Below are positions 8,036 through 43,180 of a DNA stretch of 45,111 nucleotides, piece by piece. Both the position numbers and the translations under genes were made by a program. Under the pieces are notes generated by a model that saw only the letters and a program-made list of their open reading frames with translations, was not told where the DNA came from and ran no database searches. Source of the stretch: Lachnospiraceae bacterium (lineage in GTDB: Bacteria > Bacillota > Clostridia > Lachnospirales > Lachnospiraceae); the NCBI GenBank assembly GCA_017622795.1, contig JAGAQI010000108.1:1-45111 (forward strand), given 5' to 3'. Within the stretch, counting starts at the first letter, position 1. Every line of letters starts with the position of its first letter.

Positions 8036-8360
8036 GTTTCCCACCGTTTTTCCCGCACCGGCATACCGTGCTTTCCCAGCGGCTCCGGGTTGTCCTCCCG
8101 AAGTGATATGACTGCGTTTCCCGTTTTGTCCAACTGTTTTCAGGGTATGTGGACACTTTATGTGTCAGACATGCCCTGAACTTTTCTTGAAAGGTACATC
8201 CGCAGGATGTTTTGAACAAGCCAAATCACAAAAATACCCATTCCACTCCGTCCCGAGTTTTGGCAAAACGGGAATAAACAGGCATAGTCCTCACTTCGGA
8301 GAACAAACCGGCAAGCCCCCGTGGGAAGCAGCGGAGCCGGCAGGGGGAATCGGTGGAAAC
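8036..8360. repeat. Class A structured intergenic repeat, copy 1 (325-nt imperfect hairpin)
   Basis: The left arm (8036-8130) is imperfectly complementary to the right arm (8256-8360), for example GTTTCCCACCG at the left base against CGGTGGAAAC at the right base, and CCCGTTTTG (8120-8128) against CAAAACGGG. The apex contains a compact hairpin at 8141-8178 (CAGGGTATGT pairing with ACATGCCCTG, inner GACAC/GTGTC, loop TTTAT) and a small hairpin ACATCC-GCA-GGATGT near 8196-8210. The right arm carries GGCAAGCCCCCGTGGGAA (from 8310). The same apex and right-arm motif recur at 27890-28283. It lies between the end of the GH2 gene and the gltX promoter. Short open frames run through it but are not conserved between the copies. 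Function unknown. Confidence 0.8.
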
Positions 8361-8366
8361 CATAGG

Positions 8367-8413
8367 AAAAGGCCGGCAGGCACTGATAACACCAGTTGGC
8401 CTGCCGGCCTTAA
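8367..8413 (-). terminator. Terminator of the GH2 gene
   Basis: GGCCGGCAGGC (8371-8381) pairs perfectly with GCCTGCCGGCC (8399-8409) around a 17-nt loop. On the minus strand it is followed by TTTT. It lies 19 bp after the GH2 stop codon. Confidence 0.85.
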
Positions 8414-10836: not shown

Positions 10837-10866
10837 AGTATACCTCATTTTGACAACTTCTTGCAA
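10837..10866 (-). promoter_or_regulatory. Probable promoter of the GH2 gene
   Basis: Minus-strand TTGCAA (10861-10866), 18 bp spacer, TATACT (10837-10842), about 45 bp before the GH2 start. The -35 is imperfect. No catabolite-repression site was recognised with confidence. Confidence 0.55.
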
Positions 10867-10916
10867 CAGATTCTTAAATTCTTCAAAAATTTCTCTTTTC
10901 TTTTTGCATGGACCTG

Positions 10917-10925
10917 TGTTATAAT
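10917..10925 (+). promoter_or_regulatory. Extended -10 promoter of rpoD
   Basis: TGTTATAAT, a perfect -10 with the upstream TGn extension, lies 49 bp before the rpoD start. The -35 region is a poor T-rich stretch, as expected for an extended -10 promoter. Confidence 0.6.
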
Positions 10926-10974
10926 GTCGCTTAGTCGGCTTTATTGCCAGAAATATAGAGATGAGGAAACAAGA

Positions 10975-12087
10975 ATGAGTGATTTACAGGCTTCTTTTGA
11001 AGCAAAGCTGCAGGAACTTCTTGCCATGGGACGTGCCAATAAGGACGCCATTGAAATCGACAAGGTAAATGATTTCTTTAAAGGCTTTGATTTATCTGCC
11101 GCACAAACTGATAAAATTTATGAGTATTTGGAAAATAACGGTATTGTCATTATTACTCCGTTCGAAGATGACGAACCTTCCGAAGAAGCTCTCCTTGATA
11201 TGGATCAGGAAGACGAGGCACTTTTAGAAGCTGAAGATTTAAATGCTCTTGCCAATGTCATGTCCGACGACCCGGTAAAACAGTATTTAAAAGAAATCGG
11301 TGATTATCCTCTCCTTTCCCTTGAAGAAGAGGTTGCACTGGCAGAACGCATCCAGGCCGGAGACAGCGCTGCTAAGCAGCAGTTGGCAGAATCCAACCTG
11401 CGTCTGGTTGTCAGCATTGCAAAACGTTATGTAGGCCGCGGTCTTTCCTTCCTTGATTTAATTCAGGAAGGTAACTTAGGTCTTATCAAGGCTGTGGAAA
11501 AGTTCGACCACACCAAGGGCTACAAATTTTCCACCTATGCCACCTGGTGGATCCGTCAGGCTATTACCCGTGCTATTGCAGACCAGTCCCGTACCATCCG
11601 TATTCCGGTACACATGTCTGAAGTTATTAACAAAACCTACCGTGTTTCCCGTACCTTAATGCAAGAACTCGGCCGTGAACCATCCGAACAGGAAATCGCT
11701 GATGTTATGGGACTTCCGGTAGATAAAGTCCGTGAAATCTTAAAGGTTTCCGCAGACCCAATCTCCCTAGATTCTCCAATCGGCGAAGAAGATGACAGCC
11801 ATTTAGGCGACTTCATCAAGGACGAACGCATCATGGGTCCGGAAGAGGCTGCTGCCCATTCCATGTTACAGGATCAGATTCAAAAGCTGTTGGAAACCCT
11901 CACCGAGCGTGAGCAAAGGGTATTAACCCTCCGCTTCGGCTTACAGGACGGCAGAAACCGCACTTTGGAAGAAGTAGGTAAGGAATTTAACGTAACCCGT
12001 GAACGTATCCGTCAGATTGAGGCAAAGGCGCTGAGAAAGTTACGTCATCCAAGCCGCGCAAAGCTCCTCAAGGGATATGATATTTAG
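10975..12087 (+). CDS. rpoD: Primary sigma factor SigA/RpoD
   Basis: 370 aa housekeeping sigma factor. Region 1.1 is present at the N-terminus (about 1-80, acidic). Region 1.2 reads [21 protein letters not shown]. Region 2 includes [38 protein letters not shown] and [22 protein letters not shown], which holds the -10 recognition and melting residues. Region 3 follows, and region 4 has [22 protein letters not shown] with the -35 recognition helix. The frame is open further upstream, but ATG 10975 has GAGG 8 nt before it and gives the normal N-terminus. No dnaG is adjacent, unlike the usual dnaG-rpoD order. A class B structured element follows the stop codon. Confidence 0.96.
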
Positions 12088-12105
12088 TTCCCGCATTTAG
12101 TTTTT

Positions 12106-12263
12106 GAAAATTAATAATCCCCGGCAAGAATTTGTCTTCCGAAAACACGCTCGCGCTTCCATCGAAACGTAGCGGTACTAAGTTCGAAAAAACCTCACTA
12201 AGTACCGACGTTTCTCCAGGGTTTTCTACAGACAAATTCTTGCCGGGGATTTCTTAATTTTTC
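12106..12263. repeat. Class B structured element, copy 1, downstream of rpoD
   Basis: The main element is 134 nt (12117-12250). The outer stem is 20 perfect base pairs (12117-12136 with 12231-12250), extended by GAAAATTAA against TTAATTTTTC. Inside are GAAAAC/GTTTTC (12141-12146, 12221-12226), GAAACGT/ACGTTTC (12164-12170, 12208-12214) and CGGTACT/AGTACCG (12173-12179, 12201-12207). Core segments CATCGAAACGTAGC and ACGTTTCTCCAGGGTTTT also occur in the copy at 42681-42828, but the outer stem and the seven-bp inner stem have entirely different, still complementary sequences there. It begins 18 bp after the rpoD stop, so it may double as terminator or 3' stabiliser. Confidence 0.88.
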
Positions 12264-12291
12264 ATAAGCTAAAATGAAAGGGAATTAAATA

Positions 12292-12486
12292 TCATAAAGC
12301 CTTCGTTTTTGCTTCCTTCGCTGCTTTAGAAAGCATGCCACCGATTTTTCCGGTTTCTTTTGCGGAAAGGGACTGCCAGCCATCAGTTAAGACTTTATCA
12401 AGCAGACCAAGTTCTTTGGCAATTTCGTACTTTCTTTTTTCTTCCGGTTTAATTTCACTAAGTACAATCGGTTTTCTTTTTTTCAT
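12292..12486 (-). CDS. Small acid-soluble spore protein, alpha/beta type
   Basis: 64 aa, basic and rich in Lys/Ala. The central KYEIAKELGL (19-28) matches the YEIA cleavage site of the germination protease GPR. DKVLTDGWQSLSAKETGKIGG (30-50) resembles the DNA-binding helix and GxxGG segment of the divergent alpha/beta-type SASP common in Clostridia. Such proteins coat and protect spore DNA and are degraded on germination. The start has AGGAGG at good spacing. It stands alone between two structured elements. Expression would be expected from a forespore sigma factor (sigma-G), but no such promoter was identified with confidence. Confidence 0.82.
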   Translation of the reverse strand: MKKRKPIVLSEIKPEEKRKYEIAKELGLLDKVLTDGWQSLSAKETGKIGGMLSKAAKEAKTKAL

Positions 12487-12569: not shown

Positions 12570-12720
12570 AAATTTTAGGCACTACATTATCCAAGTGTCC
12601 GACATCTCAGCCTACCGATGTACGATACATACGGACAAACGAATTTATTTGTTTGCTCCGTATGAAGCGAACACGGTAGGAGGAGTCAGGCGGACACGGA
12701 TAATGTAGTGCCTAAAATTT
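12570..12720. repeat. Class C long palindromic element (151 nt)
   Basis: The outer stem is 23 perfect base pairs (12570-12592 with 12698-12720), then GTGTCCG/CGGACAC (12595-12601, 12691-12697), CCTACCG/CGGTAGG (12611-12617, 12674-12680), and an apical hairpin CATACGGA/TCCGTATG (12628-12635, 12657-12664) with CAAAC/GTTTG. Internal loops separate the stems. It lies 16 bp after the addA stop and before the spore protein gene, so it probably ends the addBA transcript. No second copy is in the window. Confidence 0.8.
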
Positions 12721-27270: not shown

Positions 27271-27468
27271 ACAAAAGTTCTTGTCCTAGAATGTGCGATA
27301 CTCCCTGTTATTTTGAACCTACATTACTTTAAAAGGGATTCCAATATTTTTAAGTGGATGTCAGGCCTCCGATACGCAGTGGAAGGCAGAAGCTTAATTG
27401 AGGTTGCCCACCTAGCTTCGCTAGGAGTCAAAATACGGGAACCGGCATTCCGGGATTAGAACAAGAGA
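27271..27468 (+). ncRNA. ssrS: 6S RNA, Firmicutes type
   Basis: This is a roughly 198-nt non-coding stretch directly behind a strong promoter. The 5' end (GTTCTTGTCCTAGAATGTGC) can pair with the 3' end (GCATTCCGGGATTAGAACAA) to form the closing stem. The interior has segments resembling Clostridia/Bacillus 6S RNAs, including TTTTGAACC near 27312, GGCAGAAGC, and GAGGTTGCCCACCTAGC followed by a small hairpin CTAGCttcGCTAG. 6S RNA mimics an open promoter and sequesters sigma-A RNA polymerase in stationary phase. The family is recalled by pattern; a covariance-model search would settle it. The exact 3' end is uncertain. Confidence 0.72.
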
Positions 27469-27482
27469 TAAAGTCTCAAGGT

Positions 27483-27648
27483 ACATAAGAAGAATTCTAC
27501 AAAAGAAGGCTTTTACAAAAGAAAACTTACCAAAGAGAACTTTTACAAAAGACAGCATCTGCAAAAGAAGACGTTTACAAAAGATGGTTCTTACTAAAGA
27601 AAGCATTACAAAAGAATTTATAAAGTACATAAGACAAAATACCAAAGG
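27483..27648 (+). repeat. Degenerate 16-bp-period tandem array (consensus TTTACAAAAGAA plus 4 nt)
   Basis: ACAAAAGA-like units begin near 27483, 27499, 27515, 27529, 27545, 27561, 27577, 27593 and 27608, then less regularly at 27627 and 27641. Spacing is 14-16 nt, mostly exactly 16. The units lie between the 6S RNA and the terminator at 27644, so they are probably transcribed. Stop codons and the lack of a ribosome binding site argue against coding. The RNA would be A-rich and mostly unpaired. Confidence 0.85.
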
Positions 27649-27690: not shown

Positions 27691-27886
27691 CCCGCCCCAC
27701 GGAAATTCTTTCCTTGCCTGTTTCTTTTCCTCACCCAGCCACTTTTCCCGGTTGCTTTCCAAAGCTGTGTTCCCTTTTCCTGACATGATGTCAGGAAAAG
27801 AAATACACCTTTGGAGCCTGCCGGAAAAGTGCTGAACGTGAGGTCTAAGAAACAGGCAGGAAAGAATGGGATTCCGCCGGGGCGGG
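27691..27886. repeat. Class D long palindromic element (196-nt hairpin)
   Basis: CCCGCCCC (27691-27698) pairs with GGGGCGGG (27879-27886). The arms remain complementary inwards with small bulges, for example TGCCTGTTTCTT against AAGAAACAGGCA and CCACTTTTCCCGG against CCGGAAAAGTGC. The centre is a perfect palindrome, TTTTCCTGACAT-g-ATGTCAGGAAAA (27775-27799). It abuts the class A copy at 27890. No gene is inside. Confidence 0.85.
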
Positions 27887-27889
27887 TGT

Positions 27890-28283
27890 TTTCGCACCAA
27901 TTTCGATTACCAACATTCCGTGTTTTTCCGGCGGCTCCAATATCGCACAGTTTTGCCGATATGGCAGCGTCGGTGCTTTTGCCAACTGTTTGAAGTGACG
28001 GAGCATTTACTATCTTTGGCCTTAGGCATCCTTCAAAAGCGCGATAGCGCTTTTAAGAAAAGTATTCAGGGCATGTGGACACTTTATGTGTCTGACATGC
28101 CCTGTACTTTTCTTGAAAGTACATCCATCGGATGTTTTGAAGGTTGCCTAATTTCAAAAGAATTTGCTCCGGCACTGAGTTTTGGAAAAGCACCGGTAAG
28201 CAGGCATATGTTTTCGGCAAAATAATGCGATTTGGCAAGCCCCCGTGGGAAACAGCGGAGTTGTAAGAGAAATTGGTGCGAAA
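27890..28283. repeat. Class A structured intergenic repeat, copy 2 (394-nt imperfect hairpin)
   Basis: The base pairs TTTCGCACCAATTTC (from 27890) with GAAATTGGTGCGAAA (28269-28283), and the arms stay imperfectly complementary for over 140 nt. The apex has a hairpin at 28067-28104 (CAGGGCATGT/ACATGCCCTG with inner GACAC/GTGTC), then GTACTTT/AAAGTAC (28104-28122) and ACATCC-ATC-GGATGT (28121-28135). An extra hairpin AAAAGCGC-GATA-GCGCTTTT lies at 28036-28055. The right arm has GGCAAGCCCCCGTGGGAA at 28234-28251. Copy 1 at 8036-8360 shares the apex and this motif, but its arms differ in sequence and it lacks about 75 nt of the left arm. The element lies between convergent genes. Confidence 0.82.
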
Positions 28284-28294
28284 TCACCTTAAAA

Positions 28295-28319
28295 GAGGGC
28301 AGCCGGTTCGGCTACCCTC
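28295..28319 (-). terminator. Terminator of dapB
   Basis: GAGGG-c-AGCC (28295-28304), loop GGTTC, GGCT-a-CCCTC (28310-28319). On the minus strand TTTT follows. It lies 7 bp past the dapB stop. Confidence 0.85.
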
Positions 28320-41738: not shown

Positions 41739-42593
41739 ATGAAATATATTGATTTACATGTTCACTCCACTGTTTCCGACGGAACCCTGACTCCCACCGA
41801 ACTGGTAGACCACGCCGTAGAGGTCGGGCTTTCCGCCTTTGCCCTTACCGACCACGATACCATCCGCGGCGTCGCTGAAGCAAAGGAACGGGCTGCCTGG
41901 CACAAAACCCAGGGGCGCCCGATCGAAGTATATTCCGGCGTGGAAATTTCCGCCGCTTACAAAGAACGTGATATTCACATCTTAGGGTTACTGGTAAATG
42001 AACATGATGAAATATTAGACCGCATCTTAAATAACTTCTTAGAAAACCGTAATCGTAGAAACGAAAGAATGTTAGAAAAATTTGCAGAATTCGGTATCGA
42101 ACTTACCATGGAGGATTTAACCGAGGATGCTCCAAGTTCTGTCATTACCCGGGCCCACTTTGCCACTGCCCTGATGAAAAAAGGACTGGTTTCGTCGGTA
42201 CAGGAAGCCTTTGAAAAATATGTAGGAGATAACGGTCCCTGCTACATTCCAAGGGAATACATGTCTCCCGAACAGGCCATTTCCAGTATTAAAAAAGCTG
42301 GTGGTGTCCCGGTACTGGCACACCCACTGCTCTATAATCTTCCCCACGACGAACTCTACGCCCTGGTAGACCGCCTCAAAAAAGCCGGACTCAAAGGCAT
42401 CGAGGTCTATTATTCCAATAACCGCGGCCAGGACGAAGTCAACGTCAAAGCCCTTGCTAACCACTTCGGACTTGTTGCCACCGGAGGCTCCGATTTCCAC
42501 GGCTCCGTCAAACCACACATTGAACTGGGCACCGGCCGGGGCAATTTAAAAATCCCATACTCCGTATTAGAGAACGTGATAGCAGCGAAGTAA
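41739..42593 (+). CDS. PHP-domain phosphoesterase (YciV/RNase AM-like)
   Basis: 284 aa PHP-family metal-dependent phosphoesterase. Metal-binding motifs are HVHSTVSDG (7-15), LTDHDT, YSGVEIS, the later VLAHP, and GSDFHG near the C-terminus. The pattern and length fit the YciV group, which hydrolyses 3',5'-nucleoside bisphosphates such as pAp and trims RNA 5' ends. The ribosome binding site is AAGAGGT. It is transcribed alone, from a promoter whose -35 lies in a class E palindrome, and is followed by a class B structured element. Confidence 0.9.
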   Translation: MKYIDLHVHSTVSDGTLTPTELVDHAVEVGLSAFALTDHDTIRGVAEAKERAAWHKTQGRPIEVYSGVEISAAYKERDIHILGLLVNEHDEILDRILNNFLENRNRRNERMLEKFAEFGIELTMEDLTEDAPSSVITRAHFATALMKKGLVSSVQEAFEKYVGDNGPCYIPREYMSPEQAISSIKKAGGVPVLAHPLLYNLPHDELYALVDRLKKAGLKGIEVYYSNNRGQDEVNVKALANHFGLVATGGSDFHGSVKPHIELGTGRGNLKIPYSVLENVIAAK

Positions 42594-42680
42594 ACTCCGC
42601 GCTCACACCATATTCAGACAGCACTTGTGAAAGCAGAAAGCATCCGAGAAGGAATACGTTCTTTTATAGTTCAAAACATA

Positions 42681-42828
42681 AATAAATGCCTGGTTACGAA
42701 ATTTTATCCGCAAAACGCGCTTGCGCTCCATCGAAACGTAGCCTCACTAAGCTCAAAAAGACTTCGCTAAGTGAGGACGTTTCTCCAGGGTTTTGCTTGA
42801 TAAAATTTCATAACCAGGCATTATTTTA
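42681..42828. repeat. Class B structured element, copy 2, between PHP gene and yajC
   Basis: The core element is 134 nt (42687-42820), the same length as copy 1. The outer stem of 22 positions (42687-42708 with 42799-42820) has one mismatch and is extended by AATAA/TTATT. Inside are GCAAAAC/GTTTTGC, a small GCG-cttg-CGC hairpin, GAAACGT/ACGTTTC (42733-42739, 42777-42783) and CCTCACT/AGTGAGG (42742-42748, 42770-42776). The last stem reads CGGTACT/AGTACCG in copy 1, so both sides changed together. It lies between convergent genes and could terminate both. The 85 bp between the PHP stop and the element hold no recognisable feature. Confidence 0.88.
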
Positions 42829-42850
42829 TTGAAAACTATAAAAGAAACCT

Positions 42851-43180
42851 TTATTCCTTCTCAGGCTTTTCTACTTCTACAATAGCTGTCTTCTTCATCG
42901 GAATACGGCAGTTCTTGTTGTTACCGAATTCAACGATAACTACATTTTCATCTACGTTGTCGATTACTACGCCATAGAAACCGCTGGTAGTTAAAATGCT
43001 GTCACCGATTTCGATGGAGTTTACCAATTCGTCCTGCTTCTTCTGCTGCTTCTTCTGCGGACGGTAAATCATGAAGTAAATAAGTAAACCGAAAAATGCG
43101 ATGTAAATAAGCATTCCGCCCCACATACCGCCGGTAGGTGCTGCCTCTGTAGCTGCTGCTAAAACTGTTGTAAAATTCAT
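42851..43180 (-). CDS. yajC: Preprotein translocase subunit YajC
   Basis: 109 aa. The N-terminal transmembrane helix (about 22-39, MLIYIAFFGLLIYFMIYR) is followed by the signature RPQKKQQKKQDELVNSIEIGDSILTTSGFYGVV. YajC is an accessory subunit that associates with SecDF at the Sec translocon. It lies 20 bp after tgt, the common tgt-yajC order in Firmicutes. secDF is not in the window. Confidence 0.95.
   Translation of the reverse strand: MNFTTVLAAATEAAPTGGMWGGMLIYIAFFGLLIYFMIYRPQKKQQKKQDELVNSIEIGDSILTTSGFYGVVIDNVDENVVIVEFGNNKNCRIPMKKTAIVEVEKPEKE

Follow-up and report, generated by a model that had tools for sequence, protein, structure and literature searches.

The window, by which we mean the whole stretch of DNA analysed (45,111 nt from a Lachnospiraceae bacterium), carries two intergenic hairpins of closely related anatomy. 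Copy 1 follows a sigma-70 (rpoD-like) gene. Copy 2 is located 95 nt behind a PHP-domain gene and about 30 nt from the stop codon of the convergent yajC gene. The features concerned are as follows, in coordinates of the window.

10861..12087, plus strand: sigma-70 (rpoD-like) gene, with Pfam Sigma70 regions 1.1-4.
12077..12092, plus strand: outermost arm P0 of copy 1, ATGATATTTAGTTCCC, which includes the stop codon (12085-12087) of the rpoD-like gene and is complementary to 12280-12295 at 15 of 16 positions.
12117..12250, plus strand: hairpin element copy 1, from the fold and the covariance model (E 6.1e-32, the model being built from ten copies that include this one).
12117..12137, plus strand: 5' arm of the outer stem P1 of copy 1, from the fold with letters rechecked; the arm sequence is unique to this copy.
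12141..12146, plus strand: 5' side of P2 of copy 1, GAAAAC, with its partner at 12221-12226 (GTTTTC), from the fold and the alignment of own-genome copies.
12148..12156, plus strand: side hairpin of the three-way junction of copy 1, with the loop TCGC, which is GNRA on the opposite strand.
12164..12170, plus strand: 5' side of P4 of copy 1, GAAACGT, with its partner at 12208-12214 (ACGTTTC), from the fold and the same alignment.
12173..12179, plus strand: 5' side of P5 of copy 1, CGGTACT, with its partner at 12201-12207 (AGTACCG), from the fold and the same alignment.
12181..12183, plus strand: 5' side of P6 of copy 1, AGT, with its partner at 12197-12199 (ACT), enclosing the apical loop, from the fold.
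12230..12250, plus strand: 3' arm of P1 of copy 1, from the fold with letters rechecked.
12280..12295, plus strand: outermost arm P0' of copy 1, the rpoD 3' end inverted, from its complementarity to 12077-12092.
41739..42593, plus strand: PHP-domain gene (Pfam PF02811).
42646..42669, plus strand: outermost arm P0 of copy 2, GAGAAGGAATACGTTCTTTTATAG, the yajC 3' end inverted, imperfect.
42687..42820, plus strand: hairpin element copy 2, between the PHP gene and convergent yajC (E 1.7e-24, this copy being absent from the model).
42687..42708, plus strand: 5' arm of P1 of copy 2, from the fold with letters rechecked.
42799..42820, plus strand: 3' arm of P1 of copy 2, from the fold, with one non-complementary position.
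42836..42862, plus strand: outermost arm P0' of copy 2, which holds the stop codon of yajC (42851-42853, minus strand).
42851..43180, minus strand: yajC (Pfam PF02699).

Both copies had been picked out in a sequence-only reading, and their length of 134 nt and their location proved exact. The core segments said to be common to them, CATCGAAACGTAGC, CTAAG and ACGTTTCTCCAGGGTTTT, are found in both, and the letters bear out the differing inner stems, CGGTACT/AGTACCG in copy 1 and CCTCACT/AGTGAGG in copy 2. The outer stems are, as claimed, unrelated between the copies and each paired with itself, over 21 bp in copy 1 and 22 bp in copy 2 (one arm mismatch). Compared with dinucleotide shuffles, copy 1 folds with z scores of -9.9 and -8.6 on the two strands and copy 2 with -9.1 and -9.0, and none of 200 shuffles was as good in either case. 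The palindrome runs past the 134 nt into local DNA, reaching the stop codon of rpoD at copy 1 and that of yajC at copy 2.

The copies of the host genome (G000) share one anatomy. On the outside, a P1 of at least 20 bp with copy-specific sequence is followed by a short P2 and by a side hairpin at a three-way junction; on the inside, P3-P6 stand in line, followed by an optional apical hairpin. The conserved unpaired positions are ATC opposite TCCA, AG, and one A on either side of P6. Single loci depart from this plan: L029 (G000:C16:20407-20593) has a long insertion in the apical loop with further hairpins within the insertion, and L016:1220 has lost the inner stems. The window also holds a second pair of long intergenic repeats (8136-8371 and 28062-28295), in which 58-nt segments are 93% identical and others 71-85%. 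These repeats lie near an inverted repeat (27885-27910 and 28263-28288) and are possibly another class of hairpin repeat.

The element is abundant in its own genome. The 3' core word occurs there 13 times with up to two mismatches (reversed control, 0), and a covariance model built from ten own-genome copies finds 18 places at E <= 2.4e-20, each counted on its given strand. These correspond to 17 distinct copies because one contig, C8, appears as its own reverse complement. On this contig of 265,006 bases, three features are mirrored on opposite strands and each pair of positions sums to the length plus 1; therefore the contig looks self-reverse-complementary, an artefact of assembly that makes the genome appear too large. 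A search of the genome and of other Lachnospiraceae with a covariance model had been proposed as a check on the element, and it came out in favor of it: among 61 related genomes, 15 of the 37 from Lachnospiraceae (own genome included) are carriers, and none of the 24 from sister families. In a less sensitive class-wide scan, where ten candidates were scored per genome and weak copies may be missed, 7 of 291 genomes were positive, all of them Lachnospiraceae; ten members of the own family were among the genomes listed. Against one genome per species, the core pattern matched at least 119 stretches. Among the matches listed, 52 of 80 are named Lachnospiraceae, and the other labels include Eisenbergiella, Butyrivibrio, Robinsoniella, Falcatimonas and broader ones. 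Odd labels on metagenome-assembled genomes, Mogibacterium and Muribaculaceae, also occur among the listed matches. Copy numbers can be high, with at least 109 copies in Eisenbergiella tayi (150 candidates scored), 52 in G019, 34 in Falcatimonas MSJ-15 and 30 in CE91-St56, and the hairpin is mostly 130-155 nt long. Neither the exact pattern nor blastn with copy 1 gave a match to a phage, plasmid or virus.

The sequence-only reading knew of no named family with this core, and our searches agree with it. In Rfam at E <= 1, the window matched only 6S RNA and, weakly, a stretch at 12604-12681 that is off the element, and 16 further loci searched at the gathering threshold gave only an FMN riboswitch. 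No description of the repeat was found in a literature search at the level of titles and abstract beginnings, which took in few subscription papers. The 6S RNA of the window (27280-27460, 70 bits) served as a control for wobble pairing; just 3' of it, at 27482-27616, lies an array of 14-16-nt units (TACAAAAGA...).

The claim that structure is maintained, through paired stem changes around a constant core, is supported by the copies themselves. In the ten own-genome copies, 98.2% of the cells are standard pairs and 30 of 53 pairs have changed on both sides; when the partner is shifted by 1-3 columns, pairing is at most 46%, and none of 500 shuffles reaches the covariation score. The kind of pairing tells at which level the structure is kept. 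RNA folding on one strand tolerates G-U and does not tolerate A-C. If neither strand is read as RNA, single-arm transitions yield G-U and A-C in equal numbers. The consensus pairs of 183 rows (100 of the 116 in A3 and 83 of the 85 in A4, after removal of self-matches on the reverse strand, loci present more than once and three rows that were cut or partial) comprise 8402 cells, of which 7751 are Watson-Crick, 158 G-U, 163 A-C and 330 other. In P1 alone there are 52 G-U and 70 A-C in these rows. Identical rows occur in two sets: L067 and L188 probably represent one place, and L151:3493 and L174 represent two. The 181 distinct rows give 157 G-U and 162 A-C. The controls behave otherwise. 6S RNA of related genomes (29 of 30 fetched loci, L361 left out) shows 179 G-U against 17 A-C when the structure is predicted from the same sequences, and 946 against 90 over ten splits when the structure is taken from the other half; seven tRNAs show 7 against 0. 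The structure is thus kept at the DNA level or on both strands, and function on both strands may likewise suppress G-U.

Several earlier signs of RNA were weighed against these counts. A first crude count on the plus strand (74 G-U vs 27 A-C) was set aside in favor of the consensus pairs because whole halves had been aligned and non-helical columns mixed in, and a second one with extended flanks (145 vs 70) contained much spurious alignment beyond the stem. On the minus strand, the loop of the side hairpin is GNRA in 99 of 100 copies, but this is weak evidence for a minus-strand RNA, given that two of the four loop bases were set by the search expression and that all the variation at the third consists of transitions. 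At one core pair (A4 columns 81/197), 47 of 83 rows have U-A and 33 have U-G, the left side of the pair being fixed by the search pattern.

How the two arms change was compared between near copies, that is, copies of the same genome with 1 to 4 differing outer base pairs, filtered for complementary arms. In G019 (31 comparisons among 34 of 38 copies), 80 of 102 differing outer base pairs have changed on both sides, as have 74 of 113 in G069 (34 comparisons among 16 copies), the comparisons not being independent; without the filter on arm complementarity, the numbers are 82 of 113 and 74 of 113, respectively. Because near-copy differences are mostly two-sided, they suggest that one arm serves as the pattern for rewriting the other. 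All four Watson-Crick types are seen at each of 20 positions of P1.

Orthologous sites without the element exist within the genus. Behind rpoD, it is present in G000, G001 and G002 and missing from G003 (one of four). The site between PHP and yajC holds it in G000 and lacks it in G002 and G003 (two of four). In G001, the latter site holds, by eye, a different long hairpin within homologous outer arms. This hairpin (L131, behind the PHP gene) is about 180 nt long and has two core words that are absent from the window. Outside the own genus, some copies also have recognizable ends. GTAACAG-like words stand on both sides in 21 of the 183 rows, and perfect 8-bp direct repeats lie outside GTAACAG-type inverted ends in 6 of the 183 (L093, L151:3493, L165, L170, L174 and L175), with 2 more at two mismatches; the six come from only four genomes, three of them from one genome, and none from the own genus. 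With shuffled flanks, none of 268 end pairs had a duplication at up to one mismatch. L151:3493 and L174 are identical hairpins with different duplications, and in L165 the left end is 165 nt out and encloses a second repeat. The end-bounded copies span 182-283 bp, or 342 bp with the enclosed second repeat. At L224:2743-2815, a 73-nt element that lacks the hairpin core is bounded by the same GTAACAGTTCAGCC ends, with CACGTCTT as its 8-bp duplication, so that these ends carry other small elements as well. For copies of the own genus, terminal repeats with a duplication were not established, and the case for their mobility is made by empty sites and copy number. The sole own-genus candidate for a duplication, L072:4975 (TGCCGGCA), was rejected because the word is self-complementary and part of a longer inverted repeat.

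Neighboring copies within 1 kb are almost always arranged face to face: 29 pairs face each other, 1 has the same direction and none is back to back (n=30). This count covers G000, G001, G002, G011, G014, G033, 25 of 30 copies in G067 and 31 of 34 in G069, together with the fetched G019 loci and core-pattern loci with more than one copy; L206 (which lies in G069) and E. tayi are left out. Eight Falcatimonas pairs that were inspected by eye share flanks and parts of the middle, and because of this a facing pair may move as a unit. Among the readings first offered for the two stretches, that of a palindromic mobile repeat is the one that gains from these data, through the many copies, the empty orthologous sites, the inverted ends with 8-bp duplications in relatives and the facing pairs.

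The position of the element relative to genes depends on the genus. Of the 17 own-genome copies, 13 lie 18-55 nt from a stop codon. In the own genus, as judged with a crude ORF caller, 35 of 37 assessable copies have a gene 3' end on their 5' side, and in tandem gene pairs the element follows the gene direction 19 times and opposes it twice; such a bias is expected of a 3'-end function. The corresponding tandem counts in other sets are 19 vs 26, 9 vs 8, 3 vs 7 and 9 vs 5. In many own-genus copies the palindrome reaches beyond P1 into local DNA, and at L068 of G002 a whole terminator is repeated inverted across the element. The arms measure 73-100 nt in E. tayi and CE91-St56, and in E. tayi they match at 99 of 100 positions. 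The element may either capture its flanks or settle in palindromes, and both agree with the hairpin that G001 has within the same arms.

Candidates for a partner enzyme were sought among the same genomes. A Y1 transposase (PF01797; RAYT/IS200) is encoded in 35 of the 61 genomes and is absent from 6 of the 15 carriers, and IS66 transposase is absent from 10 of the 15; some of these genomes are incomplete. Both were rejected as the general partner on these grounds, although single genera could still use Y1. An autonomous element adjoining other copies of the end sequence was looked for and not found: nine ORFs beside such copies, at part of the loci, include no recognizable transposase, and one of them is without any Pfam match. 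None of the genes between widely spaced facing copies looks transposase-like by eye.

Three other accounts of the hairpins have to be considered. According to the first, they are structured RNAs in mRNA 3' ends, acting in stability, processing or regulation, and the compensatory changes reflect RNA folding. The strong covariation, the own-genus bias towards gene 3' ends, the core pair that tolerates U-G, the GNRA loop and the lean of the crude counts would all suit it. However, G-U is no commoner than A-C in the stems, at odds with 6S RNA and tRNAs; the direction bias is not clear outside the own genus; no Rfam family matches; and only 3 of 17 own sites are common to G001 or G002, as judged by flanks (compared with the G002 loci and with 2 of the 6 copies of G001). 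We therefore regard this account as distinctly unlikely, and the sequence-only suggestion of a 3' regulatory RNA is not upheld, since G-U and A-C are equally rare. Because own-genus copies stand directly behind genes, they may still have a secondary role at 3' ends. More doubtful still is the account in which each gene has an ordinary bidirectional terminator of its own as the outer stem and the core is an insert in its loop. Many own-genus outer stems do show, by eye, an A-rich lead and a T-rich tail (L018, L016), the outer stems of different genes are unrelated, and the G001 site between PHP and yajC has, by eye, a different hairpin within homologous arms. Against this, a terminator scan limited to loops of 3-8 nt identifies nothing terminator-like at the two window copies, the arms of E. 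tayi and CE91-St56 far exceed the length of a terminator and are followed by no T-run by eye, and in G019 conserved sequence lies, by eye, both outside and inside the variable stem. The rpoD site of G003 holds only a short hairpin of unrelated sequence, which argues against simple loop insertion there. Thus, of the earlier idea of an unusual terminator, the resemblance of some own-genus outer stems to bidirectional terminators stands as a visual impression, and the scan does not extend it to the window copies.

The remaining account is that the complementary arms are a pure by-product of mutation, in which template switching keeps any palindrome perfect and the hairpin has no function. Template switching has been described as creating and fixing hairpin stems, and as a source of two-sided stem changes, in the text available of PMC8794818. 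The predominance of two-sided changes between near copies, including G-C to C-G, and the occurrence of all four Watson-Crick pairs throughout P1 are what it leads one to expect. However, in the copies that the model finds in other genera, the stems change around a junction, a side hairpin and CTAA segments that stay the same. This constancy is partly an effect of the search, as the model was built from own copies and other loci were fetched by the core pattern. We consider this account unlikely, if less so than the two above.

The likely explanation is instead that both stretches belong to a mobile DNA element that is non-autonomous and has spread in Lachnospiraceae, each copy being a long palindrome around a conserved three-way-junction core. 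It has many copies, a spread within the family, empty orthologous sites, inverted ends with 8-bp duplications at some copies elsewhere and facing pairs, and its stems hold Watson-Crick complementarity with a sequence that is free to vary and with no wobble tolerance of the RNA type. The working form would be a DNA hairpin, either an extruded cruciform or a single strand, and a protein supplied in trans would recognize the core. Since neither Y1 nor IS66 transposases track the element and the ORFs beside other copies of the end sequence are not recognizable transposases, we infer this trans-acting mechanism from anatomy and statistics. Comparison of copies suggests that the arms stay complementary when one is rewritten from the other through template switching or hairpin repair, and selection for the hairpin probably helps to keep them so. 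The same copying could draw neighboring DNA, for example the 3' end of a gene, into the palindrome. In the own genus, copies may persist as harmless or useful hairpins at gene ends. A further, rather unlikely possibility is that the hairpin makes its own arms: at insertion or replication, the polymerase would turn at the folded core and copy neighboring DNA backwards, and the arms would later be kept identical in the same way. If so, each copy would capture local sequence, even a gene 3' end with its terminator, as an inverted arm, and the element would attain its spread and perfect covariation by a route distinct from ordinary transposition.

Among known systems, REPINs are the nearest in behavior. 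As far as PMC3116915 and PMC3733652 were available to us, they are small intergenic palindromic repeats with tens to hundreds of copies, in which inverted pairs are the likely mobile unit and the partner enzyme is encoded elsewhere; inverted doublets, single-strand hairpins and compensatory hairpin changes are described (PMC3116915). The over-representation of inverted doublets is found here too, in the facing pairs. REP stems are of 5-13 bp with GTAG or CGTC tags (PMC3116915, PMC3733652), whereas a single copy of our element forms one hairpin, about 130-150 nt long, in which the core is branched and the stems extend over 20 to 100 bp. No constant foot tag is seen by eye across genera in the listed copies, and the Y1 family, to which a cognate RAYT (PF01797) would belong, does not track the element. 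In the main text of PMC3733652, as far as seen, the word 'Firmicutes' does not occur. The element thus differs from REPINs in size, tag and enzyme.

A second comparison is with MITEs bearing IS66-type ends, which we take the GTAAC-type inverted ends to be. The six copies with such ends and 8-bp duplications resemble them, as does the lack of coding capacity at a size of about 100-400 bp. Unlike in MITEs, such ends are not seen in most rows, among them every own-genus one, the conserved structured core is unexpected, and two thirds of the carriers are without the matching transposase. In integron attC sites, it is the structure and not the sequence that is conserved, and the substrate is a DNA strand in folded form. 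Their outer boxes, however, are constant around a variable interior, while our element varies on the outside and conserves its core. Finally, there is bcr1 of the Bacillus cereus group. It resembles the element in being about 150 bp long and multi-copy with a common fold. It is listed in PMC2267715, and a cited title speaks of mobile-element characteristics. It belongs to another host group.

In RNA-discovery pipelines, compensatory stem changes are taken as the best sign of a functional RNA. Here is a hairpin family with very strong covariation, many copies and no RNA wobble tolerance, and it offers a test case for telling DNA palindromes from RNAs, with the ratio of G-U to A-C cells as a simple diagnostic. 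It also poses the question of which enzyme recognizes the core. As far as our searches show, the repeat is an abundant, apparently unnamed mobile repeat of a major gut bacterial family.
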